A model generated the notes under the pieces. That model was not told the DNA's origin. It saw only the letters and a program-made list of their open reading frames with translations, and did no database searches. A program made the translations under genes and the position numbers. This document shows positions 20,593-58,739 of a stretch of DNA of 64,000 bases, one piece after another. The stretch spans positions 75,257,595-75,321,594 of the forward strand of contig NC_083601.1 of the NCBI RefSeq assembly GCF_029168945.1, written 5' to 3'. Numbering within the stretch: position 1 is the first letter of the stretch; each line of letters begins with the position of its first letter. The DNA is from Cannabis sativa (Eukaryota > Streptophyta > Magnoliopsida > Rosales > Cannabaceae).

Positions 20593-22485
20593 TGTTAGGT
20601 TTTATGCCCTAAATAAAACTCCATTTCAATGTAATCTATTTTATTCAACATCAATAAAGAAACAGAAGTATTTTTCATTCATTTGTGTATGTTTTGGCTC
20701 ACTTTATCAATTGCTTGTCTAATTGATTTATAAATTCATCTTAAACCCTTTTCACATACTTGATCATGTTTATTGTGCTGTCATCACATTGGAAAGTAAA
20801 CATGACTATGTGAATAAAGTTTCCTAGATTTATCAGACACTGGGTTTTACTGATATGATAATCTACAACAAGAGTTTACTTGTATTTGGAGAAATACTAT
20901 GTTCTTTCCAGAACATTGGTTAAAGTAAAGCTCAGGTTGGATGCATGGAGTATGCATCGGAAGGGACCGATATTGAACTTTGAATTAGATTTAATTAAAG
21001 TTACCGTAAAATCTATTCAAGTCAATATCGCCAAGTTGATCCTAGATCAAATGATCTTAATCCTGTTATGATTAGGCTCAATCTTGAAAGGCTATTCGTG
21101 TTCTTTGATTTGTTAGTTAAGCCTACTTTTAGGTCAGGGTGATACGTACATTTTGGGAACACGGTAGTGCAATTGAGTGGGAGCGCTAGCATAAACATGG
21201 AATCTATAGCTTCTATCTGGCAAATAGTAAGCAAAGGATGATTTCCTTCGAGCTTGACCAAACGAAAATAAATGGTGGAGATCTCATTTCACATAAGCTG
21301 AAATATCATTTATACGGGGTCAAGTGTTTTAAGGATAAAACACATAGTAGGGTGTTACGGTAATTTAATCCCTTTACTGTGTAGATCATTCATATAGAGG
21401 ATCATTGATCAAATTAGGATTATAACAATGGATAACTAATGATGTGTCTATATGGTGGAACATATAGAGCATTCTATATACTGAGAGTGCAATTCTAAGT
21501 TCTATGCGTGGATTCAACGAAGAATTAATAAGTTAGTGAATTTTAGTGCTAAATTCTTGATCTACTTATTGGAAGCTCGGTTATATAGACCCATGGTCCC
21601 CCCACTAGTTGAGATAATATTGTTTGTAAGACTCATGTAATTGGTTTTGATTAATCAATTATAATTCACAAATTAGACTATGTCTATTTGTGAAATTTTC
21701 ACTAAGTAAGGGCGAAATTGTAAAGAAAGAGTTAACAGGGGCATATTTGTTAATTATGATACTTTGTATGGTTCAATTAATAAATATGATAAATGACAAT
21801 ATTATTTAATAATTATTTATAGTTATTAAATAGTTAGAATTGGCATTTAAATGATTGAATTAGGAAATTGGCATTTTTGAGAAAATCAGATACAAAAAGT
21901 GGTAAAATTGCAAAATTGCAAAAATCAAGGCCAGTCCACCTAGCCTAGGGCCAGCCACTTATGTTATCTTTTTTAAATGATTTTTTCATTATTTTAATGC
22001 CATATAATTCAAATCAAACCCTAGAGGAATGCTATAAATAGATAGTGAAGGCTTCAGGAAAATTACACTTTCTGAATCAGAAAAACCTGAGCCTCCACTC
22101 TCTTCTCTAGCTGCCACTCTCTCTCTCTTTTCTTCCTCAATATTTCGAACCTCTTTTAGTGATTAGAGTAGTGACCACACACATCAAGCAATACCTCAAT
22201 CATAGTGAGGAAGATTGTGAAGAAAGATCAACGACGAAAGGAGATTCGGCATCAAGGATTCGAGAGAAGAAGATCCGGGTTCGGATCTTGATAATACTCT
22301 GCTACAGAAAGGAATCAAGGGTTAGAGATCTGAACGGAAGGAGTCATTATAATTCCGCTGCACCCAATGTAAGGTTTCTTAAACTTTATATGTGTTTAAT
22401 TTATCGTTTTAGAAAGTTCATATTTAGGATGTTAATAAACATACTTGTGAGTAGATCTAAGATCCTGGTAAAATAATATCCAACA
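20593..22485 (+). repeat. Copia-A LTR 1 (1893 bp)
   Basis: Starts TGTTAGGTTTTATGCCC and ends AATATCCAACA. TATAAATA is at 22033-22040. Near its end (22245-22290) several CAG sites of the other copies appear as CGG or CGAG, while most of the upstream LTR keeps CAG/CTG. Confidence 0.95.
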
Positions 22486-22487
22486 AC

Positions 22488-22500
22488 TGGCCTCAGAGCC
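22488..22500 (+). promoter_or_regulatory. Copia-A primer-binding site, variant
   Basis: TGGCCTCAGAGCC lies two bases after the LTR end. It matches the initiator-Met complement TGGTATCAGAGCC except for CC in place of TA. Copia-0 at 44069 has the canonical form. Confidence 0.65.
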
Positions 22501-23064
22501 ATGGTAATTGATTTACTTACATGAAATTTGGACTTTAAAACGATTGTTTGTATGTTCTTTGGATGGTATCATGTTGTATTGAGTGTTATTTGATGAATGA
22601 TTGATGTTTGTGAAATTTTCGTGATAAATAATTGTGATTTCGATTCTGTAATTATTTTTATTGGATAGTATGGAAAAAATTAAGCAAGTTAGCCTTTTAC
22701 AGAACTCAATTTGGATTTTATTTGAATTAGTTATGATTTTTGAAGATTTGACAAAATCGGGGGTTGTCTTGATATTTTTGCAACGATCGCAGAACTGTCC
22801 GTACAGTTTCGGTTTTTTTTCCCTTTTCTTCAATTTTTCATACCTTTTCATGGAATTAACTTCCAAATTTTTGTATAGTTTTGTATATATACTAATACTA
22901 TTCCTAATTCAATTCTAATTATCATTTTGAATTAATTTATTTTTTTTTAAATTAATTCAAGATATTAGTGTAATTTGAATTTGAATAGAATTAGTAATTA
23001 TCTTTTTGCTTAAAAACCTATCTTATTTTTAAATTTGATTATATTTTTTTTAAATTTAAGGTCA

Positions 23065-23260
23065 GATTTTTTAGATATTTATAATATCTTTTGAGATATT
23101 TATAATATCTTTTAAGATATTTATAATATCTTTTAAGATATTTTTAAAAATATCTTTTAAGATATTTATAAAATCTTTTAAGATATTTTAAAATATCTTA
23201 TCTTTTAAGATATTTAAAAATATCTTATCTTTTAAGATTTTTTTTTAAATCTTTTTAGAT
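23065..23260 (+). repeat. Tandem ~21-bp palindromic repeat in the Copia-A leader
   Basis: Units of the type ATATCTTTTAAGATATTTATA repeat about eight times with length variation. The core TCTTTTAAGA is an imperfect palindrome. Copies are at 31275-31450 (unit 2) and, shorter, at 50985-51070 (Copia-B). Confidence 0.85.
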
Positions 23261-25559
23261 ATTTTGACCTTATTTAAAATAAGATATTTATAATCATGTA
23301 ATTTTAAATAGATATAAGATAAAAAGTAGGTTTAATTTTTTAAATTTTTTTTAAATTTTCGAAATTTATTTTTTAATTCCGAAATTATTTTTTTTCGAAT
23401 ATTAAATTTTTATTTAATTATTTATTTATTCGAAATTTATTATAAAAAAATAAAAAAAAATAAAAAATTAAATAAATCCTACTTCCAACTATCCACTAAC
23501 CCCGTTGCGTTATGAGTATGTGTTTTAACTTATGTGTAAGTTTTCAAAACCTATTATTACTTGATTGCAAATAGCCATGGTTACCTTTGCCGAGATCTAA
23601 TGATACGATGGCTCCCTTGGTCAAGATAATAATTTGTAACAGGTATAATTTACAATCTTCTTTCATCTGTGTATGACCTAGCAACATGATAGGACCCATC
23701 CAAAGTGTGCCTGTGTGAGCCTATGTGTTTAATTTTATTATAGATGCATATAGGTTAATGTTGCTAAAATAAATTATCATAATTATTGATAGGATTTATT
23801 TAGGCCCATTTAGTTTTTGGGCCTATTCAATTAATAACAGTTGTTCTTATTAAGGTTAAATTCCTCTCTTTTGGGCCTTGTGTGAGAGTTGGGAGCCATA
23901 GAAGTGGGTACGACATACTGAACCCAGCACCCCTCACACAAACTACCCCAATTGTGAAGTGCCCATTTGCACGATTTGAATGATCGTACTAGGGTTAATT
24001 ACACTAGTTTAACCTAATTAAAATTGAATTAGCAACATAATTAATTTCATTTATTTTGAAATTAATTTAGAAAATCATAGTTTAAAGAATTTAATATTCT
24101 AAGCTAAACTATATGTATTTTCTTGTATTTAATTAAATATAGAATTATAACCATCTAGATTCTTTCTGGAACTTATTTTAAATTTTTCATTAAATATTCC
24201 TATTTAAGTTGATATTTAGTTATACATAACTAACCAACTTAAATCTGAATATCTTTTGAATTCAAAATTTTAAATTAAGTTGAGGAATTTTAGGAATTGG
24301 TTATTAAGATTCTTTAGATATTTTTTAAGTTGATATTTTTCAAATATTAACTTAAAATGGAATATCTTAGATATTTTTAGGTTAATATCTTTTTTGAATA
24401 TTTAACTTAAAATATCTACAAAATTAAGTGGTTACAACTTAATTTTGAATTTAATTAAATCTGATTTGAAAGATATTTAAGTTGATTTTTTTAGATTCTT
24501 TCTAAAACAACTTAAACAAGATATTTTCAAATTTGTTCCATTTAAAATTCAAATTTTTGAATTTAATTAATAATTGAAAATTAATTAAAGTTGATTTTTT
24601 ATTTAAATCAATTTTGATTTTTAATTTTTCATTATTATATTATGGAACTTATTCGATATTTATTTGAATTTATTTTTCAAATTTAAATAATAATTGAAAA
24701 TTAATTAAAGTTGATTTTAATTAAACCAACTTTAATTTGTAATTTTTCATTATTATAATATCGAATATTATGATTATACAAAATACATATATATATTTTT
24801 TAAATAATGAGCTTTTAATCAAAAGATATTCGATCTCCATTGTTGGTCTTACAATAGTTAAACTTATTCAATATAACCTCGAGACGCTAGACTTCGTCCC
24901 CCTATGGATGGTTATTCGTTGAACACTTTTAACACCGTAAGATTTCATTTGATAAGTGTTTTGTGAGTTTTCGTCTCTATTTAGACTCTCCCCTACGGTG
25001 ACTACTTAGAGATAAACTCATAGAACATGAAACAATGGTGGAAGCTCATAAAATGAGAATAACCTTGACTCTCGCCTACGGGACAACGTTGGATTCTCAT
25101 TTTGATCGAATAAAAGGTTGCTAAAATGTTTAATTTTAGATGAGCCGACAACTCTATTCAACTAATGTTATCTTTGACTCTCGCCTACGGGACACTTTGC
25201 ATTTCATTATGTTGGAAACCTTGGAAAATAAACTATGTTAGATTTAGTATTTCTATAACATATGTCATGACTTGTTATTTTCTGAACTTGTGTATGAATT
25301 TTGAACCAAAATCTTACTTCTGTTTTATTGATGTGTTGTAGTGTCTATAATCCCCTTCTCATTCCACTCCTAGTTAATATCTTAGCAATTGAACTTGAAG
25401 TTATAAACTCCTTGTCGAGTAATACTTCACATATGCTCATGATGGACTTTAAATTCCGTAAAGCAGGTAAAAGGTAGGAATTGTTCACTACGAAGAGCAA
25501 ATAGTTCATAACTCCATAAATCCTACTACTTCAAGCTTAGTTGAGAAGATAAGAGAAAG

Positions 25560-28500
25560 TGATTCCACTTCCTCAAGTTATACTTCACAACAAAATGAAC
25601 AAGCAAGAACAACAATTAACAAACGAATAAGCAGTAATGCTTTAGTCTTCGAATCATGTGTGTTAGAGAATGATAAATCCATTTGGATTCTTGATTCGGG
25701 TCTACAAACCATGTAAGTTGTTCATTGCAATTGCTTGAGAATTGGAATTATTTGAAATCCGGAGAGTTGAAACTTAAAGTTGGTAATGGCGAAATGGTTT
25801 CGGTTAGAGCTAGAGGAAAAGCCAAACTCAAGTTTCAAAACAGAATTTTGGAATTAGACAATGTCTTATACATTCCAAATTTCAGTAGAAACTTAGTTTC
25901 TGTTTCATGCTTACAATTGCAACAATACAAATTAGATTTTTCGGATTGGTTCTACCATTTCTCGAAATGACATTCGGATTTGTGTTGCATCCATGGAACA
26001 GGGCTTTATGTTCTTAGACCGAAACACCATTTGCCCTACATAACGAACTTTTTAAAGTAGCTAAACCTAGAAACCACAAAAAGCAAAAGATCGTTGATGA
26101 TAATGAAACATATCTATGGCATTTACGTTTAGGTCATATAGGCTTTGATAGACTCGATAGGCTAACCAAAGACGGTCCATTGAAAAATGTCGTCTTAGGT
26201 GAATTGCCGGTTTGCGAGTCTGCTGGAAGGAAAAATGACTAAACGTTCTTTCTCCGCAAAGGGAGAGCGTGCCAAAATCCCTCTAGGGTTAGTGCATTCC
26301 GATGTACGCGGACCTTTGAATGTCAAAGCCCGAGGTGGTTATGAGTACTTCGTCACTTTCATTGACGATTACTCTAGATATGGACATATTTACCTTATGC
26401 ATAAGAAATCGAAACATTTGCAAAGTTTCAAGAATTTCATGCTTTGGCCCAAAACCAATTAGGTAAATCATTAAAGATCTTGCGGGCGATAGGGGTGGAG
26501 AATATATGGATATGCAGTTCAAAGATCATTTAATTGAACTTGGAATTGAATCTCAATTAACCGCCCCTAGCACTCCACAGCAAAATGGAGTTGCAGAAAG
26601 ACGGAATCGCACGCTTTTGGAAATGGTTAGGTCTATGCTTAGTTTTTCAACTCTACCTACGTCCTTCAGGGATATGCAATTCGGATGGCAACCGACATTT
26701 TAAATGTTGTTCCATCTAAATCAATCCCTAAGACACCTTTAGAACTTTGGAATGGTCGTACACCTAGTTTACGCCATTACGTAATCTGGGGTGCCCTGCT
26801 CATGTCTTAAGAAAGAAAGACGGCAAACTTGAGTCACGTACTGAAGTTTGCATGTTTGTCGGTAATTCTAAAGAGACTAGGGGTGGACTATTTTATAGTC
26901 GCAAGGATGATAAAGTGTTTGTTTCTACAAATGCCACTTTCCTTGAAGATGACTATATTAAGAATTTCAAATCACAAAGTAAAGTAGTGTTGGAGGAAAT
27001 GCTTTCAGATATAAGTCCTTCCAATGTTCCGTTCTCTTCCACACGTGAAGAGGACAATCCCACTCCCTCAGTTGAACAAACTGAGCAATCTACTACTAAA
27101 GTTTCTGTTCAGAAGACAACCGTACCTCGTCGTAGTGGGAGGGTTTCAACAAAACCTGCTCGTTATGGCTTGGATGGTGAAATCAATATGGTCGTAGGTG
27201 ACGGTATTGATGACGATCCATTAACCTATAAACAGGCAATGGCTAGTCCGCAACGGAAACGATGGTCAGCCGGAATGGATTCAGAAATGGATTCCATGAA
27301 AAAGAACAAAGTCTGGGAATATGTAGACGCACCTGACGACTATCATCCGATAGGATGCAAGTGGGTTTACAAGAAGAAAAGAGGAGCTGGAGGCGAAGTC
27401 GAAACTTTCAAAGCTAGACTTGTAGCCAAGGGTTATACCCAAAGAGAAGGCGTGGACTATGAGGAAACTTTTAGTCCTGTTGCCATGCTCAAATCCATCC
27501 GAATTCTTCTCTCCATAGCTGCTTTCGATTATGAAATCTGGCAAATGGATGTCAAGACTGCCTTCCTTAATGGGGTACTTGAAGAAACCATCTATATGGA
27601 GCAACCAGAAGGTTATGTTCTTCCTGGGCAAGAAAAGAAAGTTTGCAAGTTAAACAGGTCTATCTATGGACTTACGCAAGCTTCTCGCTCATGGAACAAG
27701 AGGTTTGATGAAATCATCAAAACCTACGACTTTCTTCAGAATGAAGATGAACCTTGTGTTTACCAACTCAAGGAAGACCAAATAGTAGTATTCCTGGTCC
27801 TTTATGTTGATGACATTTTGATCATTGGAAACAATGTCAAGAAAATGACTCACATTAAGGAATGGCTCAACACTCAATTCGATATGAAAGATTTGGGTGA
27901 AGCAGCCTATGTTCTTGGTATTCAGATTATAAGAAACCGGAAGAACAGATCTCTTGCTCTCTCTCAAACGACCTACATAGACAAAGTCTTAGAGAGATTC
28001 TCCATGAGCAACACCAATGGGGCAAACATGCCTTCTAGATATGGTATTCGTCTATCTAAGGAACGATCCGCATCGATCCTCAAGAGATAGAGGACATGGC
28101 GAAAATTCCCTATGCCTCTGCAGTTGGAAGTCTAATGTATGCAATGTTATGCACTAGACCTGACATCTGTTATGTTGTTGGAATCGTGAGCAGGTATCAG
28201 TCTAATCCAGGACAAGAACATTGGAATGCAGTTAAGTATATTCTGAAATACTTAAAGAGTACAAGGAATCTTATGTTAGTCTACAAGGGTGGTGCTTTAA
28301 ATCCCATAGGCTACACTCGATTCGGATTTCCAGCAAGTCTTGAAGACGGAAATCAACATCGGGATGGTGTTGACTCTTGGGGGTGGAGCAGTGGTTTGGA
28401 GAAGTGCTAAACAAACCGCAATATCGGACTCAACTATGGAAGCTGAATACATAGCGACGGCGAAGGCTGCTAAAGAACTTGTCCGGCTAAGAAAGTTCTT

Positions 28501-28757
28501 CACCAAAGCATAGGAGTTGTTCTGGAATGGAAAAGCCTGCGGTACTACTGCGTGATAACAATGGAGCAATAGCAAACAGCAAAGAACCTCGAAGCCACAA
28601 GAGAAGCAAACACATTGAAAGGAAGTATCACATTATCAGAGAATACGTGGCAAGAGGGGATGTACTAGTTGAGAAAGTTGACACAGAGGACAACCTAGCT
28701 GATCCATTTACCAAAGTCTTGGCCGTGACGGCCTTTGAAAAGCACCGTCGAATATAG
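25560..28757 (+). pseudogene. Copia-A pol (PR-IN-RT-RNaseH), unit 1, interrupted
   Basis: Copia polyprotein for protease, integrase and reverse transcriptase/RNase H. The protease region is at about 25690-25950 (LDS-type motif disturbed at 25700). The pre-integrase motif WHLRLGH is near 26120. Integrase runs 26260-26690, with D in VHSDV and E in QQNGVAERR. The RT frame 26852-28090 carries a clean YVDD (about 27805), and RNase H lies at 28096-28757. Breaks fall near 25700, 25945, 26220, 26410, 26485, 26700, 26790, 28085 and 28350. Several lie where the expected codon contains CTG or CAG: 26214-26228 (ESCLEG), 26409 (KKSE) and 26485 (SDRGG). The uninterrupted 412-codon RT frame suggests a recently active source. 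The PPT follows at 28793-28806. Confidence 0.85.
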
Positions 28758-28792
28758 GATTAATTGATATGTACTAATTAGTTTTATATTAG

Positions 28793-28806
28793 TGCAAGTG
28801 GGAGTT
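28793..28806 (+). promoter_or_regulatory. Polypurine tract before Copia-A LTR 2
   Basis: GCAAGTGGGAGTT directly before TGTTAGG. The same tract precedes LTR 3 (37011-37024) and the Copia-B 3' LTR (56833-56846). It primes plus-strand synthesis in copia elements. Confidence 0.75.
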
Positions 28807-30698
28807 TGTTAGGTTTTATGCCCTAAATAAAACTCCATTTCAATGTAATCTATTTTATTCAACATCAATAAAGAAACAGAAGTATTTTTCATTCATTTGT
28901 GTATGTTTTGGCTCACTTTATCAATTGCTTGTCTAATTGATTTATAAATTCATCTTAAACCCTTTTCACATACTTGATCATGTTTATTGTCTTGTCATCA
29001 CATTGGAAAGTAAACATGACTATGTGAATAAAGTTTCCTAGATTTATCGTACACCGGGTTTTACCGATATGATAATCTACAACAAGAGTTTACTTGTATT
29101 TGGAGAAATACTATGTTCTTTCCAGAACATTGGTTAAAGTAAAGCTTCGGAGTTGGATGCATGGAGTATGCATCGGAAGGGACCGATATTGAACTTTGAA
29201 TTAGATTTAATTAAAGTTACCGTAAAATCTATTCAAGTCAATATCGCCAAGTTGATCCTAGATCAAATGATCTTAATCCCGTTATGATTAGGCTCACTCT
29301 TGAAAGGCTATTCGTGTTCTTTGATTTGTTAGTTAAGCCTACTTTTAGGTCGGGGTGATACGTACATTTTGGGAACACGGTAGTGCAATTGAGTGGGAGC
29401 GCTAGCATAAACATGGAATCTATAGCTTCTATCGGCAAATAGTAAGCAAAGGATGATTTCCTTCGAGCTTGACCAAACGAAAATAAATGGTGGAGATCTC
29501 ATTTCACATAGTGAAATATCATTTATACGGGGTCAAGTGTTTTAAGGATAAAACACATAGTAGGGTGTTACGGTAATTTAATCCCTTTACTTGTGTAGAT
29601 CATTCATATAGAGGATCATTGATCAAATTAGGATTATAACAATGGATAACTAATGATGTGTCTATATGGTGGAACATATAGAGCATTCTATATGCGAGAG
29701 TGCAATTCTAAGTTCTATGCGTGGATTCAACGAAGAATTAATAAGTTAGTGAATTTTAGTGCTAAATTCTTGATCTACTTATTGGAAGCTCGAGTTATAT
29801 AAACCCATGGTCCCCCCACTAGTTGAGATAATATTGTTTGTAAGACTCATGTAATTGGTTTTGATTAATCAATTATAATTCACAAATTAGACTATGTCTA
29901 TTTGTGAAATTTTCACTAAGTAAGGGCGAAATTGTAAAGAAAGAGTTAACAGGGGCATATTTGTTAATTATGATACTTTGTATGGTTCAATTAATAAATA
30001 TGATAAATGACAATATTATTTAATAATTATTTATAGTTATTAAATAGTTAGAATTGGCATTTAAATGATTGAATTAGGAAATTGGCATTTTTAAGAAAAT
30101 CGAGATACAAAAAGTGGTAAAATTGCAAAATTGCAAAAATCAAGGCCCGATCCACCTAGCCTAGGGCCAGCCACTTATGTTATCTTTTTTAAATGATTTT
30201 TTCATTATTTTAATGCCATATAATTCAAATCAAACCCTAGAGGAATGCTATAAATAGATAGTGAAGGCGTCAGGAAAATTACACTTTACGAATCGGAAAA
30301 ACACGAGCCTCCACTCTCTTCTCTAGGCCACTCTCTCTCTCTTTTCTTCCTCAATATTTCGAACCTCTTTTAGTGATTAGAGTAGTGACCACACACATCG
30401 AAGCAATACCTCAATCATAGTGAGGAAGATTGTGAAGAAAGATCAACGATGAAGGAGATTCAGCATCAAGGATTCAGAGAAGAAGATCCAGGTTCAGATC
30501 TTGATAATACTCTGCTACAGAAAGGAATCAAGGGTTAGAGATCTGAACGGAAGGAGTCATTATAATTCCGCTGCACCCAATGTAAGGTTTCTTAAACTTT
30601 ATATGTGTTTAATTTATCGTTTTAGAAAGTTCATATTTAGGATGTTAATAAACATACTTGTGAGTAGATCTAAGATCCTGGTAAAATAATATCCAACA
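28807..30698 (+). repeat. Copia-A LTR 2, shared middle LTR (1892 bp)
   Basis: Serves as 3' LTR of unit 1 and 5' LTR of unit 2. TATAAATA is at 30249-30256. It differs from LTR 1 nearly only at CAG/CTG sites. For example ATCAGACACTGGG (20832) reads ATCGTACACCGGG at 29046, and TTCTGAATCAG reads TTACGAATCGG near 30289. Confidence 0.95.
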
Positions 30699-33535
30699 AG
30701 CGGCCTCGAGCCATGGTAATTGATTTACTTACATGAAATTTGGACTTTAAAACGATTGTTTGTATGTTCTTTGGATGGTATCATGTTGTATTGAGTGTTA
30801 TTTGATGAATGATTGATGTTTGTGAAATTTTCGTGATAAATAATTGTGATTTCGATTCTGTAATTATTTTTATTGGATAGTATGGAAAAAATTAAGCAAG
30901 TTAGCCTTTTACAGAACTCAATTTGGATTTTATTTGAATTAGTTATGATTTTTTGAAGATTTGACAAAATCGGGGCTGTGCTGATATTTTCTGCGATCGC
31001 AGAACTGTCCGTACAGTTTCGGTTTTTTTTCCCTTTTCTTCAATTTTTCATACCTTTTCATGGAATTAACTTCCAAATTTTTGTATAGTTTTGTATATAT
31101 ACTAATACTATTCCTAATTCAATTCTAATTATCATTTTGAATTAATTTATTTTTTAAATTAATTCAAGATATTAGTGTAATTTGAATTTGAATAGAATTA
31201 GTAATTATCTTTTCGCTTAAAAACCTATCTTATTTTTAAATTTGATTATATTTTTTTTAAATTTAAGGTCGATTTTTAGATATTTATAATATCTTTTGAG
31301 ATATTTATAATATCTTTTAAGATATTTATAATATCTTTTAAGATATTTTTAAAAATATCTTTTAAGATATTTATAAAATCTTTTAAGATATTTTAAAATA
31401 TCTTATCTTTTAAGATATTTAAAAATATCTTATCTTTTAAGATTTTTTTTTAAATCTTTTTAGATATTTTGACCTTATTTAAAATAAGATATTTATAATC
31501 ATGTAATTTTAAATAGATATAAGATAAAAAGTAGGTTTAATTTTTTAAATTTTTTTTAAATTTTCGAAATTTATTTTTTAATTCCGAAATTATTTTTTTT
31601 CGAATATTAAATTTTTATTTAATTATTTATTTATTCGAAATTTATTATAAAAAAATAAAAAAATAAAAAAAAATAAAAAATTAAATAAATCCTACTTCCA
31701 ACTATCCAGCCTAACCTTTGCGGGGAGTATGTGTTTTAACTTATGTGTAAGTTTTCAAAACCTATTATTACTTGATTGCAAATAGCCATGGTTACCTTTT
31801 GCCGGATCTAATGATACGATGGCTCCACTTAGTCAAGATAATAATTTGTAACGGTATAATTTACAATCTTCTTTCATCCGTGTATGACCTAGCAACATGA
31901 TAGGACCCATCCAAAGTGTGCCTGTGTGAGCCTATGTGTTTAATTTTATTATAGATGCATATAGGTTAATGTTGCTAAAATAAATTATCATAATTATTGA
32001 TAGGATTTATTTAGGCCCATTTAGTTTTTGGGCATATTCAATTAATAACGGCTTGTTCTTATTAAGGTTAAATTCCTCTCTTTTGGGCCTTGTGTGAGAG
32101 TTGGGAGCCATAGAAGTGGGTACGACATACCGAACCCGCACCCCCTCACACAAACTACCCCAATTGTGAAGGCCCATTTGCTCGATTTGAATGACTGTAC
32201 TAGGGTTAATTACACTAGTTTAACCTAATTAAAATTGAATTAGCAACATAATTAATTTCATTTATTTTGAAATTAATTTAGAAAATCATAGTTTAAAGAA
32301 TTTAATATTCTAAGCTAAACTATATGTATTTTCTTGTATTTAATTAAATATAGAATTATAACCATCTAGATTCTTTCTGGAACTTATTTTAAATTTTTCA
32401 TTAAATATTCCTATTTAAGTTGATATTTAGTTATACATAACTAACCAACTTAAATACTGAATATCTTTTGAATTCAAAATTTTAAATTAAGTTGAGGAAT
32501 TTTAGGAATTGGTTATTAAGATTCTTTAGATATTTTTTAAGTTGATATTTTTCAAATATTAACTTAAAATGGAATATCTTAGATATTTTTAGGTTAATAT
32601 CTTTTTTGAATATTTAACTTAAAATATCTACAAAATTAAGTGGTTACAACTTAATTTTGAATTTAATTAAATACGATTTGAAAGATATTTAAGTTGATTT
32701 TTTTAGATTCTTTCTAAAACAACTTAAACAAGATATTTTCAAATTTGTTCCATTTAAAATTCAAATTTTTGAATTTAATTAATAATTGAAAATTAATTAA
32801 AGTTGATTTTTTATTTAAATCAATTTTGATTTTTAATTTTTCATTATTATATTATGGAACTTATTCGATATTTATTTGAATTTATTTTTCAAATTTAAAT
32901 AATAATTGAAAATTAATTAAAGTTGATTTTAATTAAACCAACTTTAATTTGTAATTTTTCATTATTATAATATCGAATATTATGATTATACAAAATACAT
33001 ATATATATTTTTTAAATAATGAGCTTTTAATCAAAAGATATTCGATCTCCATTGTTGGTCTTACAATAGTTAAACTTATTCAATATAACCTCGAGACGCT
33101 AGACTTCGTCCCCTATGGATGGTTATTCGTTGAACACTTTTAACACCGTAAGATTTCATTTGATAAGTGTTTTGTGAGTTTTCGTCTCTATTTAGACTCT
33201 CCCTACGGTGACTACTTAGAGATAAACTCATAGAACATGAAACAATGGTGGAAGCTCATAAAATGAGAATAACCTTGACTCTCGCCTAAACGGGACAACG
33301 TTGGATTCTCATTTTGATCGAATAAAAGGTTGCTAAAATGTTTAATTTTAGATGAGCTGACAACTCTATTCAACTAATGTTATCTTTGACTCTCGCCTAC
33401 CGGGACACTGCATTTCATTATGTTGGAAACCTTGGAAAATAAACTATGTTAGATTTAGTATTTCTATAACATATGTCATGACTGTTATTTTCTGAACTTG
33501 TGTATGAATTTTGAACCAAAATCTTACTTCTGTTT
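30699..33535 (+). other. Copia-A long non-coding leader, unit 2
   Basis: Near-identical repeat of 22486-25300. The primer site reads GCGGCCTCGAGCC, changed at the CTG and CAG positions relative to unit 1. It holds the ~21-bp palindromic array (31275-31450) and the GACTCTCGCCTA..GGGAC motifs (33276 and 33389), both altered at the CTACGGG step (CTAAACGGG, CTACCGGG). No coding frame is recognised. Confidence 0.8.
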
Positions 33536-33774
33536 TATTGATGTGTTGTAGTGTCTATAATCCCCTTCTCATTCCACTCCTAGTTAATATCTTAGCAATT
33601 GAACTTGAATTTATAAACTCCTTGTCGAGTAATACTTCACATATGCTCATGATGGACTTTAAATTCCGAAGCGAGGTAAGGCGGGAATTGTTCACTCTGA
33701 AGAGCAAATAGTTCATAACTCCATAAATCCTACTACTTCAAGCTTAGTTGAGAAGATAAGAGAAAGTGATTCCA

Positions 33775-36700: not shown

Positions 36701-36975
36701 CGGCTAAGAAAGTTCTTCACCCGGCATAGGAGTTGTTCTGGAATGGAAAAGCCTGCGAGTACTACTACGTGATAACAATGGAGCAATAGCAAACAGCAAA
36801 GAACCTCGAAGCCACAAGAGAAGCAAACACATTGAAAGGAAGTATCACATTATCAGAGAATACGTGGCAAGAGGGGATGTACTAGTTGAGAAAGTTGACA
36901 CAGAGGACAACCTAGGCTGATCCATTTACCAAAGTCTTGGCCGTGACGGCCTTTGAAAAGCACCGTCGAATATAG
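33775..36975 (+). pseudogene. Copia-A pol, unit 2, heavily interrupted
   Basis: Same domain order as unit 1: protease with a TAA at 33903 in place of the DSG region, pre-integrase frame 34121-34450 (WHLRLGH), integrase 34407-34742, RT pieces 34964-35407 and 35472-35921, and a YVDD-type segment near 36020. RNase H ends with TAG at 36973. It is otherwise almost identical to unit 1. The extra frameshifts lie where unit 1 has CAG or CTG: 35730 (AGCTGC), 35750 (ATCTGG), 35818 (CCAGAAG), 35868 (ACAGG), 36138 (TCAGAT), 36170 (ACAGAT) and 36333 (CTGCAG). The damage therefore looks like sequence error rather than decay. Confidence 0.82.
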
Positions 36976-37024
36976 GATTAATTGATATGTACTAATTAGT
37001 TTTATATTAGTGCAAGTGGGAGTT

Positions 37025-44014: not shown

Positions 44015-44019
44015 TAATG

Positions 44020-45792: not shown

Positions 45793-46920
45793 TGTAAAGC
45801 CCGCTTAGTTAATTTGGAAATTATCAGTTAATTATGATTAATCATGAAATTATTTATAGCTATTTATATAATTTATTACTGTTATTTATGGAATTCTGAA
45901 ATGCATGGTTATGTTATTTAGTAGTTTTCATATTTTGCATTTCCGGTGCCCGGTATTTTGGAACTCGGCGTTTGGCTCAGTAGAAATCACAACTTAGTAT
46001 GTTAGTAGTTTGGGGACGGGTTTTAGACATTGGAAATGTCGGGAATGGCCGGGAATTTAGAATTTCCCAAAAATACCCCTTTAGTATGATTTATGTGGTT
46101 TTATGGTGGAGGGGCAAAATGGTCTTTTTGCCCCATTAGCATTTTGTCTTTTGTGATTTTATGAAATGGAAAATAAATGTTTAATTGTTTAATTGATGGC
46201 TGAAATAAAATGGTATATGTGGCATTTATTCTTTTTCCTTCTCATTTCAACACTTAGCAAAAAAAAAAAAAAAAAAATAGAAAATTTTGAAAAAGAAAAC
46301 TCTCATTTCTCTCTCTCATTTTTGGCCAAGTCTTGGGCAGCAAGGAGCTGATTCCTCCATTGATATTTTCTTGTGAATTCATCCCTCTTTTAGGTCCATT
46401 TCAAGCTAGGTTAGCTCTTGTAACTCCTCTTTATGTTTTGTTGAATTTGATGAAAAGTTGGTGATGCATGCATGAATTCTTAGTTGTTCTTACTGCTGGG
46501 TTTTATGGTTAATTTCTGGGATGTATGTATGTTATTTTGAGGTTAATTAAGCTATTAGAAATGCATGTTTAGTACCTTGTTTCAAGTTTAGAATTTCTAG
46601 CTCAAAAATGTGATTTTTGGTGAAATTGTTGTGAATCTGTTGCTGTATTGTTGTTAATGCTTTTGTTTGTTTTCTGAGATTATATTATGCTAGTTTAAGA
46701 GGTTTTAAGCTAGTTTGATTGCTTGTTAGGTGGTTTTGCTCAAGTTTGAGTTTAGAACTCAAAGCTTGAGCTCCTATGGTGATTTTTGTTTCTGTGCATT
46801 CTGGGTTGTTTTGAGGCCTTAGAAATGTTCTAGGGAAGGTTTAGAACAGGTCTGGAAAGTTTGAATCAATTTGGGGTTGAATTGGTTGAGATATGAAAAT
46901 TTGATGTTCTTTGCGAGGAA

Positions 46921-47498: not shown

Positions 47499-47547
47499 AG
47501 GATACTTGTCAATAGTACCGTCCCCGTTAACGTTCAAAACTCGGTAC

Positions 47548-48287: not shown

Positions 48288-48506
48288 ATGCCAACTCTTG
48301 GTTTCGCAGGGGGTTCTAATCAGATGGACGCCAGGCGGACTACCAGGAGTCAGGGCAACTCCGTAGGGTCGAACCAAGGACAGGGAGCTCAGTTTCCCCC
48401 ACCTGTTAGGGGCCGAGGTAGAGGTCCCCGAGGCAGGGCTCGTGGTCGGGGTGATGAGAACCCGCCACAGGCTGCCCAGGCTCCCCCAGCCGATCAGGGA
48501 GCCCAG
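48288..48506 (+). pseudogene. Gypsy-2 gag, N-terminal part, cut by Copia-B
   Basis: The frame starts at ATG 48288; a second ATG at 48324 (MDARRTTRSQ) is an equally good start. It encodes an Arg-Gly-rich segment (RGRGRGPRGRARGRG) typical of the N-terminus of chromovirus Gag. The frame is open to the Copia-B insertion after GCCCAG (48506) and continues in phase at 58745 with a coiled-coil-like segment. Confidence 0.85.
48502..48506 (+). repeat. Target-site duplication, left copy, of Copia-B (CCCAG)
   Basis: CCCAG before the first Copia-B LTR is repeated exactly at 58740-58744 after the second LTR. Confidence 0.95.
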
Positions 48507-50403
48507 TGTTGGGTTTTATGCCCTAAATAAAACTCATTTCAATATAATCAGATTTGTTTATTAATATAGATCAGAAATAACATTTAATGGTGCATGGTTC
48601 ACATGATTTATTTCATGATTATATGTACATAATGTATAAATTCATCTGAAACCCTTTTCACATACTTGATCCTGTTTATTGTGTCGTCAACACATTGGAA
48701 AGTAAACATGACTATGTGAATAAAGTTTCCTAGATTTATCAGACATAGGGTTTTACTGATATGATAATCTACAACAAGAGTTTACTTGTATTTGGAGAAA
48801 TACTATGTTCTTTCCAGAACATTGGTTAAAGTAAAGCTCAGGTTGGATGCATGGAGTATGCATCGGAAGGGACCGATATTGAACTTTGACTTAGATTTAA
48901 TTAAACTTACCGTAAAATCTATTCAAGTCAATATCGCCTAGTTGATCCTAGATCAAATGATCTTAATCCAGATATGATTAGGCTCAATCTTGAAAGGCTA
49001 TTCGTGTTCTTTGATTTGTTAGTTAAGCCTACTTTTAGGTCGGGGTGATACGTACATTTTGGGAACACGGTAGTGCAATTGAGTGGGAGCGCTATCATAA
49101 ACATGGAATCTATAGCTTCTATCTGGCGAATAGTAAGCAAAGGATGATCTCCTTCGAGCTTGACCAAACGAACATAAATGGTGGAGTACTCATTTCACAT
49201 AAGCTGAAATATCATTTATACGGGGTCAAGTGTTTTAAGGAATAAATACATTGTAGGGTGTAACAGTAATTTAATCCCTTTACAATGTAGATCATTCATA
49301 TAGAGGATCATTGATCAAATTAGGATTATAACAATGGATAACTAATGATGTGTCTATATGGTGGAACATATAGAGCATTCTATATACTGAGAGTGCAATT
49401 CTAAGTTCTATGCGTGGATTCAACGAAGAATTAATAAGTTAGTGAATTTTAGTGTTAAATTCTTGATCTACTTATTGGAAGCTCGGTTATATAGACCCAT
49501 GGTCCCCCCACTAGTTGAGATAATATTGCTTGTAAGACTCATGTAATTGGTTTTGATTAATCAATTATAATTCTCAAATTAGACTATGTCTATTTGTGAA
49601 TTTTTCACTAAGTAAGGGCGAAATTGTAAAGAAAGAGTTTATAGGGGCATATTTGTTAATTATGATACTTTGTATGGTTCAATTAATAAATATGATAAAT
49701 GACAATATTATTTAATAATTATTTATAGTTATTAAATAGTTAGAATTGGCATTTAAATGGTTGAATTAGGAAATTGGTATTTTTGAGAAAATCAGATACA
49801 AAAGGTGTTAAAATTGCAAAATTGCAAAAAGCAAGGCCCAATCCACTAAGTGTAGGGCCAGCCACTTTTGTAGGAAATTTAAACTGATTTTTTCATTATT
49901 TTAATGCCAAATAATTCAAACCTAACCCTAGTGGAATGCTATAAATAGATAGTGAAGGCTTCGGGGAAATTTACACTTAAATTTTCTATTTTTCCTTCGA
50001 GAGAAAAACCGAGCCTTCTCTCTCCCTATCTTTAGCCGTCACTTCTTCTCTTCCCTCTTGAGAATTTCGAAATCCTTAGTGATTACGGTAGTGCCCACAC
50101 ACATCAAGTGATACCTCAATCATAGTGAGGAAGATCGTGAAGAAAGATCATCAAGAAAGGAGTTTCGGCATCAAAGATTCGGAGAAAGAGATCCGAGGTT
50201 CAGATATTGATAATGCTCTGCTACAGAAAGGAATCAAGGGCTAGATATCTGAACGGAAGGAGTCATTATATTCCGCTGCACCCAATGTAAGGTTTCTTAA
50301 ACTTTATATGTGTTTAATTTATCGTTTTAGAAAGTTCATATTTAGGATGTTAATAAACATACTTGTGAGTAGATCTAAGATCCTGGTAAAATAATTTCCA
50401 ACA
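48507..50403 (+). repeat. Copia-B 5' LTR
   Basis: Starts TGTTGGGTTTTATGCCC and ends AATTTCCAACA. TATAAATA is at 49940-49947. Between 49965 and 50210 it shows CGG, CGAG, CCG or AAG where the 3' LTR has CAG or CTG. Confidence 0.95.
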
Positions 50404-53400
50404 ACTGGCCTCGAGCCATGGTAATTGATTTACTTACATGTAATTTGGACTTTAAAACGATTGTTTGTATGTTCTTTGGATGGTATCATGTTGTATTGAG
50501 TGTTATTTGATGATTGATTGATGATTGTGAAATTTTCGTGAAAAATAATTGTTATTTCGGTTCTGGCATTATTTTTATTGGATAGTATGGAAAAAATTAA
50601 GCAAGTTAGCCTTTTACAGAACTCAATTTGGATTTTATTTGAATTAGTTATGATTTTTTGAAGATTTGACAAAATCGGAAATTTGTCTTGATAGTTTCCT
50701 GCGATCGCAGAACTGTCCGTACAGTTTCGAATTTTTTCAATTTTCTTCAATTTTTCATACTTTTTCATGGAATTAACTTCCAATTTTTTGTATGGTTTTG
50801 TATATATACTATTACTATTCCTAATTCAATTCTAATTATCATTTTGAATTAATTTAATTTTTTTTTAATTTAATTCAAGATATTAGTGTAATTTGAATTT
50901 GAATAGAATTAGTATTTATCTTTTTGCTTAAAAATCTATCTTATTTTTAAATTTGATTATATTTTTTTTTAAATTTAAGGTCAGATATTTTAAGATATTT
51001 ATAATATCTTTTAAGATATTTATAATATCTTTTAAGATATTTTAAAAATATCTTATCTTTTAAGATTTTTTAATTAAATCTTTTTAGATATTTTGACCAT
51101 ATTTAAATTTAAAATAAGATATTTATAATCATGTAATTTTTAAATGATATAAGATATTTTGCTAATTTTTTTAAATTTTGTTATTTTATTTATTTAAATT
51201 ACATTTAAAATTTGAAAAAGATATTTATTTATCTTTTCTAATTTTTTATTTAATTTTTATTTATAAAATAACATTTAAAATTTAAAAGTAGTTAGCAAAT
51301 TTTTTTTTGAAATGATATTTAGGTTGGTTGAAACCTAATTTTTCAAAAATTGTAGGTTTAATTTTAAATTTAAATTTTTTAAAAAAAATTCGAATTTTTC
51401 AAATTTTTTTTTAAATTTTTCGAAAAATTATTTTTTTTATTTAATTAATTATTTTCGAAATTAAATATTTAATTTAAAATTAAATAAATCCTACTTCCAA
51501 CTATCCAGCTAACCCTGTTGCAGGAGTATGTGTTTTAGCTTGTTTGTAAGTTTTCAAAACCTATTATTACTTGATTGCAAATAGCCATGGTTACTTTTTG
51601 CCAGATCTAATGATCTGATGGCTCCCTTGGTCAAGTTAATAATTTGTAACAGGTAAATTTTACAATCTTCTTTCATCTGTGTATGACCTAGCAACATGAT
51701 AGGACCCATCCAAAGTGTGCCTGTGTGAGCCTATGTGTTTAATTTCATTATAGATGCATATAGATGTTGTTGCTAAAATAAATTATCATAGTTCTTGATA
51801 GAATTTATTTAGGCCCATTTAGTTATTGGGCTTATTCAATTAATAACAGTTGTTCTTATTAAGGTTAAATTCCTCTCTTTTGGGCCTTGTGTGAGAGTTG
51901 GGAGCCATAGAAGTGGGTACGACATACTGAACCCAGCACCCCCTCACACAAACCACCCCAATTGTGAAGGCCCATTTGCCTGATTTGAATAGTACTAGGT
52001 TAATTACACTAGTTTAACCTAATTAAAATTGATTAGCAACATAATTAATTTCATTTATTTTGAAATTAATTTAAGAAAAATATAGTTTAAAGAATTATTT
52101 TTTATTCTAAGCTAAACTATATGTATTTTCTTGTATTTAATTAAATATAGAATTATAACCATCTAGATTCTTTCTGGAACTTAATTTAAATTTTTCATTA
52201 AATATTCCTATTTAAGTTGATATTTAGTTATCTTCAACTAACCAACTTAAATCTGAATATCTTTTGAATTCAAAATTTCAAAATTAAGTTGAGGAATTTT
52301 AGGCATTGGTTATTAAGATTCTTTAGATATTTTTTAAGTTAATATCTTTTCGAATATTAACTTAAAATGGAATATTTTCAAATTAAGTGGTTACAACTTA
52401 ATTTTTGATATTTAATTAAATTTAAATTTGAAAAATATTTAAGTTCTAGATTTTTTCTAGTCAACTTAAATTAGATATTTTTTCAAATTTTGTGGAAAAG
52501 ATACTTAGTCAAATAAGATATTTTCTAGATAGTTATTTCTAGACTACTTATTATTTCTAATATTAAATAGGAAATATTATACATTGTGAAATTAATTATT
52601 TATTAATTAATTTTGGTACAATTTACTTTAAGTATATTTTTCCTAGTATTAAACTAGAGATTAATAATTAAGTCTTCTCTACACTTAATTATTTATTTCT
52701 TGAATTTAATACATTTAATTAATTTGAAAATTAAATATCTAAGTTGATTTTTATCATCATACTTAAATATTTCTTTTTCATGACATTTAATTAAATAGAA
52801 AATTATTTTTAGTTGAAATTTAATTTTTCAACTAAATTTAAATAATTTTCAAAATATATTTTTTCTTTATTTTATTAATCAATTTTTTTTCGAAATTGCA
52901 TTTCTTAAATGCTAGAATTTCGAATTTTATCTTCAAAAATAGATTAAGTTGTAAATTAATTATTTATTTTAATTAATTTTGGACCAACTTAAATCAATGA
53001 TTTTTTCATTTATTGATTAATTTAAAATAAATTAAATTAAAGTATATTATTAGAAATTGAATTAATTAGTCAAAGAAAAATCTAGATAGATGATATTTTT
53101 GCTTGAAGTATTTTTCTAGTGTATTTAATTAAATAGAAAATTAATATTTAAGTTGATTTTCATCATTATACTTAAATATTTGAAATTTTTCTTATATATT
53201 TAATTAAATAGGAAAATTATATTTTTTGTTGTAAATTAATTTTATTAATTAATTTTGGGCCAACATTAAATTAGAATAATTTTTCCAGGATTTATTTTTT
53301 ATTTTAATATGCATTTTTCGAAAATTGTATTCTTAAATACTTTAATTTTTCGAAATGCAATATATATTTATAGAAAATTAAATTTGAGTTGTAAATTAAT

Positions 53401-54150
53401 TTAAATTAATTTTGTAACAACTTAAATTGAATATTTTTCTAAATATTTATTGGAAATTATTACTAAGATGGAAATAATTCATATTATTTTCATATCCATC
53501 TAAGTAAAATTTATAAATATTAAATTAAAATTTATATTTAGAATTTTTCATTCTAAATTGGAAATTTTAAATAAATATATATTTAAAATAAATAGATTAA
53601 ATAAAGAGAATCAAAGAAAATACAACTCACTTTAAATAATGAGCTTGATTATTATTAAGATATTCGATCTCCATTGTTGGTCTTACAAAAGTTAAATGTT
53701 TTCAATATAACCTCGAGACGCTAGACTTCGTCCCCCTATGGATGGTTATTCGTTGAACGCATTTAACACCGTAAGATTTCATTTGATAAGTGTTTTGTAA
53801 GTTTTCGTCTCTATTAGACTCTCCCCTACGGTGACTACTTAGAGATAAACTTATGAAACATGAAACAATGGTAGAAGCTCATAAAATGAGAATAACCTTG
53901 ACTCTCGCCTACGGGACAACGTTGGATTCTTATTTTGATCGAATAAAAGGTTGCTAGAATGGTTTCTATTTTAGATGAAGTGACAACTCTATTCAATAAA
54001 TGATGCTTTGACTCTCGCCTACGGGACCTTTGTATCGGTTTGTTGAAAACCTTGGAAATTATTTAGGATTGTAAGTTTTAGTATTTTCACTTGTCATTCC
54101 TACTAGCTATATGCTTATAATTTACGAATTGTGTATGAATTTATATTGAA
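50404..54150 (+). other. Copia-B long non-coding leader
   Basis: Begins with the variant primer site TGGCCTCGAGCC (50406). The first ~750 bp and the block 53640-54050 are closely similar to the Copia-A leader, including two GACTCTCGCCTACGGGAC motifs (53899 and 54010). The middle (51150-53600) is extremely AT-rich with many ATTTAATTAAAT-type palindromes and has no frame. Confidence 0.75.
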
Positions 54151-56832
54151 CCATGTTATTTTTACGTTATTAAGTTGTAGTTTAATTTCGAATCTTCATT
54201 GTTGGTCTAACTTGGCTTGTTTATCTAATGAGATAAATCCCTAGTGGATTTTCACCATTAGACATACATAATAGTGTTAGATTTCGAAAGATAAATATTG
54301 TACATGCGACATCTAATTTGTTCATCAATTGATGACACCTTAGACTAGTATTTTTACGATATGAAACAAGAAGATTATATAAATAAGATTACTTTGACTT
54401 TCGCTAATCGAAGCATCGTTGGATTCTTATTTTAAACGAAATTATCCTAATTCCTCTTAGCTTATTCATTTCGAATTAGCTTTCAAAACATATCATTGGA
54501 TGAATGGTCTATAAATCATTTCATGTCATTTTATATGACGCATATGATTATAATCCCGAAATTCTATTCCCGATTGATATAAATCCTCAATCTTAGAAAT
54601 CTCCTACTTGTATGGGCAAATCTGACTTAGAGTTTGTATTAGTAGTGCATGGTCCAAGATAGAATTACTCATTATATTTGGTATAAATTTAAGTCTTTGA
54701 CTTTAATTTTAGATTCCAAATAGAAATTTTCTTAAATTTCTAATTCCGGAATACAATACGGTTACACTTTCTCAAGTGTTTAATATCCATCTTTTATTAA
54801 TGGATTAAAGCGTATGGAATGTGAGTTAGGTATTCGTGACCGGGATCCACTTGAAGTATTCTAAGAACTCTTTGATGTAACTAAACCTATATCATCCAAA
54901 GACACTACCACATTTTTTTTAATCTGTGTGGCATTTGTATCTTGTTCATAGTGGTTTTGACAAGATCAATCTCTCGCAAAGAGTTAATATGCCTATATCC
55001 ATCGAAAGTAGTTCATCTCATTCGCGGATGGATGTACATTCGGGGGTGGATATGAGTTTTTCGTTGTATTCTTAAAACGATAACTCTAGATTATACCTTA
55101 TGCAAAGAAATTTGAAATGTTTGAAAAATTTCATCAATTTCTAGCAATGGTTAAACACCATTAAGGTATGTGGTTAAAGATCTTGCGAATGATAGGGGTG
55201 GAGAAATAGTTAGTAGATATGCGGTTCAAAGATCATTACATTGATTTTTGAATTATATCCAAACTTACCTCCCCGAAATTTCGAGTTGCATGTTGATGAT
55301 TAGTTACTAGTCGTTGCCTAATTCCTTCTATGGTAATACAATTTCGGAATGATGTAATGGTTGTATACTTAATGTAAATCATTACTAGATTCATGGATGA
55401 CCTAATCAAAATCTTAAGAAAAGCTAGAACCATTAACCATGGTTTGTTAGCTATTCTAAGTGATTAGGGGTGGACCATCCCATTGTCAATAGATAAGAAA
55501 GTTTTTGTTCAAACAAATACTACTTTTCTAAGATAATGACTAAGTACGAAAACAAGTAGCAAATAAAGGAGATATTTAATTCTTGATTCCAAAAGTGTTC
55601 TATCATCTTATATAACATATGATGATCCCACCGCCTCTGTTGTCTTGTCACAACCGAAGAGATCAATACCATTTAGTTTTCTTAGACATAATTCACGGTG
55701 CCTTGTCGTAGTGGGAGAGTTTCTAGGAACTCACCTTCTTATGACTTGGGAGACACTAGTGATTAAAATCCATTGTGAGTTTAAACAAGTAATGGATTGT
55801 CAAGATAAGAAACTAAGAAGAAAGCCAATAGAACTATGGTTTAATCCATTCACATGGAGTAACCTAAAGTTTTCTATTACAAGGACATAAAAGGAAATTT
55901 TAGTTAATAAGTCTATTCTATGGACTTAACAAACTTCTGTTCCTAGCATTATAGGTTTGAGTTTATCTAAACCTATGGCTTATGGTATACACAGGTAATT
56001 ACTTACTCTAATGCAAGCAACTTACTTTAGTAAAATCTTTGAAGCATTTTCTTTCTAATGGCAATCTATAGAAGCTTCACAACTTCTTAGGTATAGATTT
56101 TATTTATCTAAGGAAAAGTCTTAACTATTCCGGAAAAGATAAAGCCATGAAAGAATTTCTTATATCAACGGTGAGAGGTCTTAGATATGCTTTTGTATGC
56201 CTTAGACCGGACATCTATTGTTGAGTGGGAGTAATGAGTAGGTATCGATTAATCCGGGGAGAAGAACATTGGAAGACAATCAAGTAAATTTTAAGATTAA
56301 GAAGAGGAACTATATGTTAGTCTATAAGGGTGTGTTTAAAACTCTTAGACTACACCATATCGAATTTCGAAATTTGCCTATGTGCTAGTAAATCTTTACG
56401 ATAAGATGGTGGTTACTGCGGGGGTGGAATAGTGATTTTGGAGAAGTGTAAAAACCTATCTGAATTCTCTAAGTCTACCGAGAGAGAGACCGAATGTTAA
56501 AGGTTGCGGGGGAAAGTTACTTATTCGGTCTAAGGAAAGTTCTATACATCTTTGGCACCATTCCAAATTGCCTTAAACTACTAGTGTTAATTTCTTGATT
56601 AACCAAAAGTAGTTGCCAAAGGTATAGAATCCAGTATCCCAAGAGAGTAGACATATAGAGAGGAATTTCACATTATCAATGATTTTGTGATTAAAGGAAG
56701 AGTAATGGTGGAGAAAAGGTTGTGGTTAATTCAACCTTTCAGATCCTATTACGAGGAGTTTACTACTACTACACTTGATTTGCATATCAAGGTGTTGAGA
56801 TTATTTGAAACGCACTTTTTGTTTTATATTAG
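54151..56832 (+). pseudogene. Copia-B pol relic
   Basis: Recognisable only as short matches in the same order as Copia-A pol. Integrase region: ATGTACATTCGGGGGTGGATATGAG at 55031 and CTTGCGAATGATAGGGGTGG at 55182. Pre-RT region: TGCCTTGTCGTAGTGGGAG at 55700. RNase H region: about 56200-56560. Its end matches the Copia-A end at TTTTATATTAGTGCAAGTGGG (56823). The longest open frame is 81 codons (55645-55890) with no intact domain. Unlike Copia-A, the divergence is broad and not confined to CAG/CTG, so this is real decay. Confidence 0.75.
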
Positions 56833-56846
56833 TGCAAGTGGGAGTT

Positions 56847-58739
56847 TGTTGGGTTTTATGCCCTAAATAAAACTCATTTCAATATAATCGATTTGTTTAT
56901 TAATATAGATCGAAATAACATTTAATGGTGCATGGTTCACATGATTTATTTCATGCTTATATGTACATAATGTATAAATTCATACGAAACCCTTTTCACA
57001 TACTTGATCTTGTTTATTGTGTCGTCAACACATTGGAAAGTAAACATGACTATGTGAATAAAGTTTCCTAGATTTATCAGACATAGGGTTTTACTGATAT
57101 GATAATCTACAACAAGAGTTTACTTGTATTTGGAGAAATACTATGTTCTTTCCAGAACATTGGTTAAAGTAAAGCTCAGGTTGGATGCATGGAGTATGCA
57201 TCGGAAGGGACCGATATTGAACTTTGACTTAGATTTAATTAAACTTACCGTAAAATCTATTCAAGTCAATATCGCCTAGTTGATCCTAGATCAAATGATC
57301 TTAATCCAGATATGATTAGGCTCAATCTTGAAAGGCTATTCGTGTTCTTTGATTTGTTAGTTAAGCCTACTTTTAGGTCAGGGTGATACGTACATTTTGG
57401 GAACACGGTAGTGCAATTGAGTGGGAGCGCTATCATAAACATGGAATCTATAGCTTCTATATGGCGAATAGTAAGCAAAGGATGATCTCCTTCGAGCTTG
57501 ACCAAACGAACATAAATGGTGGAGTACTCATTTCACATAAGCTGAAATATCATTTATACGGGGTCAAGTGTTTTAAGGAATAAATACATTGTAGGGTGTA
57601 ACGGTAATTTAATCCCTTTACAATGTAGATCATTCATATAGAGGATCATTGATCAAATTAGGATTATAACAATGGATAACTAATGATGTGTCTATATGGT
57701 GGAACATATAGAGCATTCTATATGCCGAGAGTGCAATTCTAAGTTCTATGCGTGGATTCAACGAAGAATTAATAAGTTAGTGAATTTTAGTGTTAAATTC
57801 TTGATCTACTTATTGGAAGCTCGGTTATATAGACCCATGGTCCCCCCACTAGTTGAGATAATATTGCTTGTAAGACTCATGTAATTGGTTTTGATTAATC
57901 AATTATAATTCTCAAATTAGACTATGTCTATTTGTGAATTTTTCACTAAGTAAGGGCGAAATTGTAAAGAAAGAGTTTATAGGGGCATATTTGTTAATTA
58001 TGATACTTTGTATGGTTCAATTAATAAATATGATAAATGACAATATTATTTAATAATTATTTATAGTTATTAAATAGTTAGAATTGGCATTTAAATGGTT
58101 GAATTAGGAAATTGGTATTTTTGAGAAAATCAGATACAAAAGGTGTTAAAATTGCAAAATTGCAAAAAGCAAGGCCCAATCCACTAAGTGTAGGGCCAGC
58201 CACTTTTGTAGGAAATTTAAACTGATTTTTTCATTATTTTAATGCCAAATAATTCAAACCTAACCCTAGTGGAATGCTATAAATAGATAGTGAAGGCTTC
58301 AGGAAATTTACACTTAAATTTTCTATTTTTCCTTCAGAGAAAAACCTGAGCCTTCTCTCTCCCTATCTTTAGCTGTCACTTCTTCTCTTCCCTCTTGAGA
58401 ATTTCGAAATCCTTAGTGATTACAGTAGTGCCCACACACATCAAGTGATACCTCAATCATAGTGAGGAAGATCGTGAAGAAAGATCATCAGCAAAGGAGT
58501 TTCAGCATCAAAGATTCAGAGAAAGAGATCCAGGTTCAGATATTGATAATGCTCTGCTACAGAAAGGAATCAAGGGCTAGATATCTGAACGGAAGGAGTC
58601 ATTATATTCCGCTGCACCCAATGTAAGGTTTCTTAAACTTTATATGTGTTTAATTTATCGTTTTAGAAAGTTCATATTTAGGATGTTAATAAACATACTT
58701 GTGAGTAGATCTAAGATCCTGGTAAAATAAATTCCAACA
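56847..58739 (+). repeat. Copia-B 3' LTR
   Basis: Collinear with 48507-50403. TATAAATA is at 58278-58285. In its first 150 bp it is the copy with CAG/CTG losses (AATCGATTT for AATCAGATTT, CATACGAAAC for CATCTGAAAC). Toward the end it keeps CAG/CTG where the 5' LTR does not. Confidence 0.95.

Follow-up and report, generated by a model that had tools for sequence, protein, structure and literature searches.

Near-identical copia retrotransposon copies in a Cannabis sativa assembly differ from one another largely at CAG and CTG trinucleotides, and we consider it highly probable (about 0.93) that the differences are mainly nanopore consensus errors at methylated CHG sites that were left unpolished in repeats: an artefact, not mutation. 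An earlier note on this DNA had read the differences as base-calling error remaining in repeats, and its reading gains support from several features that base-calling error at unplaceable reads would explain, namely short indels, few in-frame stops, variation at the same sites in two elements, and a rise with distance from unique flanking sequence. Judged on the letters themselves, the spectrum is unlike cytosine deamination and unlike ordinary divergence. The test of distance from the flank is the main evidence added to the original observation.

Nested copia and gypsy elements

The window (the whole stretch analysed, 64,000 nucleotides of contig NC_083601.1) is plant DNA packed with retrotransposons nested in one another. 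The long terminal repeats (LTRs) and internal regions that were compared are:

14199..16008, + strand: related old copia LTR, with about 82% identity (control)
16010-18170, + strand: gypsy LTR, 94.5% identical to its partner at 41846-44019 (control)
20593..22485, + strand: Copia-A LTR1, with TGTCC at its outer edge
22486..28806, + strand: Copia-A internal region, copy 1
28807..30698, + strand: Copia-A LTR2, the middle LTR
30699..37024, + strand: Copia-A internal region, copy 2, with no listed open reading frame (ORF) of at least 150 aa
37025..38918, + strand: Copia-A LTR3, followed by TGTCC
41846-44019, + strand: gypsy LTR, partner of 16010-18170 (control)
45793..46541, + strand: young gypsy LTR, assigned from the layout, 98.7% identical to 63256-64000 (control)
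48507..50403, + strand: Copia-B 5' LTR, with CCCAG at its outer edge
50404..56846, + strand: Copia-B internal region
56847..58739, + strand: Copia-B 3' LTR, followed by CCCAG
63256..64000, + strand: young gypsy LTR partner, extending to the window end (control)

The gypsy element with 94.5% identical LTRs is split at 20593-38918 by Copia-A, an LTR-internal-LTR-internal-LTR tandem enclosed by a single pair of TGTCC repeats. A second gypsy element (45793-46541 to 63256-64000), with gag and pol ORFs at 58769-63254, is by its layout interrupted by Copia-B (48507-58739). The LTRs of Copia-A and Copia-B end in TGTT...AACA, and the 5-bp target repeats are TGTCC and CCCAG, respectively. A 412-aa ORF in Copia-A copy 1 carries an RVT_2 domain (PF07727, E 3.6e-72); 7634 of 7991 scored homologue candidates passed and 120 were listed, mostly unnamed, and the named Copia-A homologues among the matches listed are plant proteins, from Cucumis, Citrus, Acer and Malus among others. 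The RVT_2 domain, the TG...CA LTRs and the 5-bp target repeats are features shared with plant Ty1/copia LTR retrotransposons; Copia-A differs from these in its tandem arrangement inside one target repeat, which could have arisen by unequal recombination or by a misjoin. Once the class of differences that sets CAG/CTG against CG is removed, 19 substitution clusters remain between the two Copia-A internal copies over 6.3 kb, and four of these clusters contain neither CAG/CTG nor CG.

The Copia-B internal region matches Copia-A in three stretches of at least 200 bp, besides its LTR-flanking 3' end, and has only 19.1% G+C at 52001-54000. To the left of the retrotransposons lie an ORF with a MULE transposase domain (919-2055, + strand) and one with a DUF1985 domain (5797-6591, - strand), and scans of the window for tRNAs and for Rfam families each returned 0 hits. 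In copia elements the tRNA primer site directly follows the 5' LTR; at 22486-22510, 30699-30725 and 50404-50428, which occupy this place, the copies differ at CAG/CTG positions.

Differences at CAG and CTG between Copia copies

Five alignments were compared: the three Copia-A LTR pairs, the Copia-A internal pair and the Copia-B LTR pair. A tabulation by trinucleotide, set beforehand in the earlier note as a check, bears out an excess at CAG/CTG of about 8-fold, with 119 of 311 such trinucleotides changed as against 1291 of 27775 trinucleotides of all kinds (pooled counts, which are non-independent since the three Copia-A LTR pairs share sequences); CCG/CGG were changed in 96 of 246 cases. The excess is also found when differences are grouped into clusters, each scored if CAG/CTG occurs in either copy and set against 200 random placements. 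CAG/CTG occurs in 21 of 29 clusters between LTR1 and LTR2 (random mean 1.7, maximum 5), 13 of 19 between LTR1 and LTR3 (1.0, maximum 5), 14 of 28 between LTR2 and LTR3 (1.4, maximum 5), 53 of 96 between the internal copies (5.2, maximum 14) and 17 of 19 between the Copia-B LTRs (1.1, maximum 4), where cluster totals move by about one with alignment settings (96 or 95 for the internal pair). The claim that most differences fall at CAG/CTG is thus accurate for four of the five comparisons and reaches exactly half for LTR2 and LTR3, and the stronger wording that they fall almost only there suits only Copia-B and goes too far for the Copia-A internal regions. In alignment, the copies differ as had been described at the individual sites named (20834/29047/37264 and 20850 in the LTRs; 26409/34618, 26485/34695 and within 26211-26228/34418-34435 in the internal regions).

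The usual reading opposite a CAG or CTG is CG, CGG, CGAG, CCG or ACG. CG-type states occur at CAG and at CTG sites alike, and hence on both strands of the symmetric motif (51 LTR sites). The statement that the products are not those of methylcytosine decay is borne out: deamination, which would turn CAG into TAG or CAA and CTG into TTG or CTA, is not the pattern, and CG is present in most of the Copia CAG/CTG clusters (45 of 54 in the Copia-A internal pair and 14 of 17 in the Copia-B LTRs, where 3 of the 19 clusters in all show a CAG/CTG change with no CG). Among the internal clusters, 35 set CAG/CTG of copy 1 against CG of copy 2, 9 are the opposite way round, 8 have CAG/CTG in one copy without CG in the other, and 1 has CAG/CTG in both; a further 22 of the 96 have CG without CAG/CTG, and 21 of the 96 have neither, several of these being differences in run length. 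Gap clusters and substitution clusters are about equally common in this pair (50:45); in the old gypsy LTRs they stand at 7:74.

The variable sites are partly shared between elements. CG-type and intact states vary between copies at 20 LTR sites in Copia-A and 13 in Copia-B, and at seven sites each element has a CG-type copy alongside an intact one. This sharing bears on the possibility that true diverged paralogues or haplotypes, each with its own real variants, were chimerically joined in the assembly, which we regard as very unlikely: although LTR2 is unlike LTR1 and LTR3 across most of its length, and assemblers can make misjoins in a tandem such as this one, with its three LTRs and two internal regions, chimeric joining predicts neither the CAG/CTG specificity nor variation at the same sites in Copia-B.

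Frameshifts, unique flanks and control LTRs

The pol stretch of each Copia-A internal copy was aligned to four of the 120 listed homologues (P0001, P0013, P0002 and P0004, in which order the counts are given). Copy 1 has 7, 8, 5 and 6 frameshifts with 0, 0, 0 and 0 in-frame stops, and copy 2 has 15, 14, 11 and 13 frameshifts with 0, 1, 0 and 1 stops, the scarcity of stops being approximate as the frameshift script may convert some of them to frameshifts. Most of the frameshifts lie within 9 nt of a difference between the copies (6, 8, 5 and 6 in copy 1; 13, 13, 10 and 12 in copy 2; null fraction 0.22-0.28) and within 9 nt of a CG (5, 7, 4 and 5; 12, 13, 10 and 12; null fraction 0.39-0.52). In a decaying gene stops would be expected to accumulate as well, so that their scarcity, approximate as it is, speaks against decay.

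Within the LTRs, the position of CG-type states relative to unique flanking sequence is strongly uneven. A site was counted only if at least one other of six LTRs (the five Copia LTRs and the old control) keeps CAG/CTG, and 90 Copia LTR cells that are neither CAG/CTG nor CG-type were left out of the distance test, as was the old control LTR. For the five Copia LTRs together, the median distance from the unique flank is 1679 bp for CG-type cells (n=54) and 749 bp for intact cells (n=103), with p=4e-7 by the Mann-Whitney test, in a comparison whose cells are non-independent and in which part of the CG-type states may be ancestral. The difference remains without the middle LTR (1580 bp, n=37, versus 552 bp, n=89; p=2e-5), and the observed mean distance was reached by only 1 of 20000 within-site shuffles (21 sites). 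At 0-500 bp from the flank there are 4 CG-type and 40 intact cells, as against 23 and 16 at 1500-2000 bp.

Stricter counts, made within each family, give the same picture in opposite orientations: 13 CG-type sites in the 5' LTRs have a median column of 1696, and 10 in the 3' LTRs a median column of 257 (p=5e-5). CG-type sites are confined to the inward-facing ends of LTR1 (5 CG-type and 21 intact, the former only at columns 1681-1732) and LTR3 (5 and 23, only at columns 70-352), and they run throughout LTR2, the most affected (14 and 14, columns 248 to 1681). In Copia-B, 7 of the 8 CG-type sites of the 5' LTR (15 intact) are at columns 1483-1725, and the 5 of the 3' LTR (15 intact) are at columns 43-904, its inward-facing half. 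The exception is one CG-type site at column 556 of the Copia-B 5' LTR, near its clean outer part. At column 779, one of the 10 CG-type sites of the 3' LTRs, which lies in Copia-B, all three Copia-A copies and the old LTR read CGG, and the CAG copy rather than the CGG one may be the changed one. The earlier description of affected patches that switch between copies therefore fits the LTRs; along the Copia-A internal region a runs test found no patch structure (15 runs, with as few in 10669 of 20000 shuffles).

Control LTRs in the window are largely free of the pattern. The 94.5% identical gypsy pair has a mild excess of clusters at CAG/CTG (14 of 81 against 6.4 expected, with a maximum of 15 in 200 placements), and only 3 of the 81 set CAG/CTG against CG, so that the older gypsy LTRs do largely lack the CG-type differences, as had been stated, and depart from that statement in the mild excess. 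In the young gypsy pair (745-749 bp, 98.7% identical) 0 of 7 clusters are at CAG/CTG and 0 of 20 CAG/CTG are changed, both copies counted, where about 8 would be expected at the Copia rate. The old copia LTR at 14199-16008 has 1 CG-type, 15 intact and 23 other states at 39 sites. The affected repeats had been called young, and the near-identical Copia copies are indeed affected; given the clean 98.7% pair, however, age alone gives no rule, and distance from unique sequence fits better than youth. Ratios of CAG/CTG to CCG/CGG by region were not used as evidence; they are 4.22 in the left 14 kb, 2.08 in LTR1, 1.37 in internal copy 1, 0.82 in LTR2, 0.71 in internal copy 2, 2.00 in LTR3, 1.22 at 44020-48506, 0.91 in the Copia-B internal region and 1.55-2.90 in gypsy regions.

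Nesting offers a further comparison. By the layout Copia-B sits inside a gypsy element and should therefore be younger than its host, yet its LTRs carry 7.92 substitution clusters per kb, about as many as those of the host (8.05 per kb, a small number of 6 in 745 bp), and 2.64 per kb once the CAG/CTG-CG class is removed. If the layout is read correctly, this equality of raw divergence would count against mutation.

A real mutational process could target methylated CHG sites in silenced retrotransposons, an example being error-prone repair once 5-methylcytosine has been excised, and would yield adjacent A-to-G or T-to-C changes, loss of A or T and short (1-base) indels. It would suit a motif that is the symmetric plant CHG context, affected at CAG and CTG sites both, and some of the motif-less differences between copies may be real; such a process nevertheless offers no evident reason for opposite dependence on edge distance in 5' and 3' LTRs, none for 5-15 frameshifts with 0-1 stops, and none for the sparing of the gypsy pairs in the same window (0/7 and 3/81 clusters), and we judge it extremely improbable. 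The opposite gradients fit read placement from unique flanks. Ordinary neutral divergence with methylcytosine deamination after insertion or duplication is scarcely credible, since it could provide the internal clusters that contain neither CAG/CTG nor CG (21 of 96), the few CAG/CTG changes without CG (3/19 in the Copia-B LTRs) and the pattern of the gypsy pairs, but not an 8-fold motif excess, indels about as numerous as substitutions in the Copia-A internal pair, or CG in place of TAG/CTA or TTG/CAA. On this evidence deamination, chimeric assembly alone and a real CHG mutator were all rejected.

Probable misreading of methylated CHG sites

CHG methylation of plant transposons is well established. 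Under the reading we prefer, consensus error at methylated CHG sites, the CAG/CTG sites of silenced copia elements would contain 5-methylcytosine (5mC) on each strand, and a nanopore basecaller untrained on 5mC would read CAG/CTG as CG, CGG or CGAG, or from the other strand as CCG or ACG. The true bases would be recovered during polishing wherever reads map uniquely, and errors would persist deep within the near-identical tandem copia units, where polishing reads are unassignable, and likewise at the inward-facing ends of the paired LTRs of about 1.9 kb. Nanopore misreading and CHG methylation would together account for the motif, its symmetry and the non-deamination products, and failed polishing probably acts as the filter.

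The nanopore chemistry and the 5mC mark are inferred from a bacterial precedent. Passages of Wick et al. 2019 (PMC6591954) assign about 70% of consensus errors in a Klebsiella pneumoniae genome, with then-current ONT basecallers, to CCAGG/CCTGG, the Dcm motif that carries 5mC, and state that these errors almost disappeared after custom training on methylated DNA. That case, so far as this text describes it, resembles the present one in 5mC within a CWG core and in errors that dominate the consensus, and it was curable by training; it differs in its bacterial methylase and 5-base motif, where here a plant CHG core is affected in near-identical repeats only. By this analogy the artefact looks like one of a known kind, the plant CHG counterpart of the bacterial Dcm-motif errors. 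Passages of two further papers hold that plant methylation likely lowers nanopore accuracy or hampers basecalling of native DNA (PMC9749173, PMC7501810); in the accessible portions neither gives a CHG-specific error spectrum ('CHG' appears 0 times in the first and once, on methylation detection, in the second). Genome-wide CHG methylation in maize is put at 71.9% in seedling and 74.5% in callus in an extract of PMC8188678. In the accessible text of the open-licence PMC literature, no report of CAG-to-CG/CGG errors in plant assemblies was found.

The internal regions fit less simply. In segments that align between the elements, CG-type, intact and other states number 5, 15 and 7 in Copia-A internal copy 1 and 11, 10 and 2 in copy 2, as against 1, 17 and 5 in the three Copia-B internal segments. 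The latter lie at least 1.9 kb from a unique flank and yet are nearly clean, which is not predicted from distance alone; the Copia-B internal region has no near-identical partner within the window. We read this as a sign that near-identity to another copy would matter alongside distance. The 21 of 96 internal clusters with neither CAG/CTG nor CG need another class of error, or real change.

Should errors of this kind be widespread in plant assemblies built from nanopore reads, young retrotransposons would appear as frame-broken pseudogenes, and LTR dating would give ages that are too old, as when the Copia-B value falls from 7.92 to 2.64 per kb without this class. A tally of CAG/CTG against CG between LTR pairs is a cheap test of assembly quality for which reads are unnecessary, and through these errors the assembly itself may retain a rough imprint of CHG methylation.
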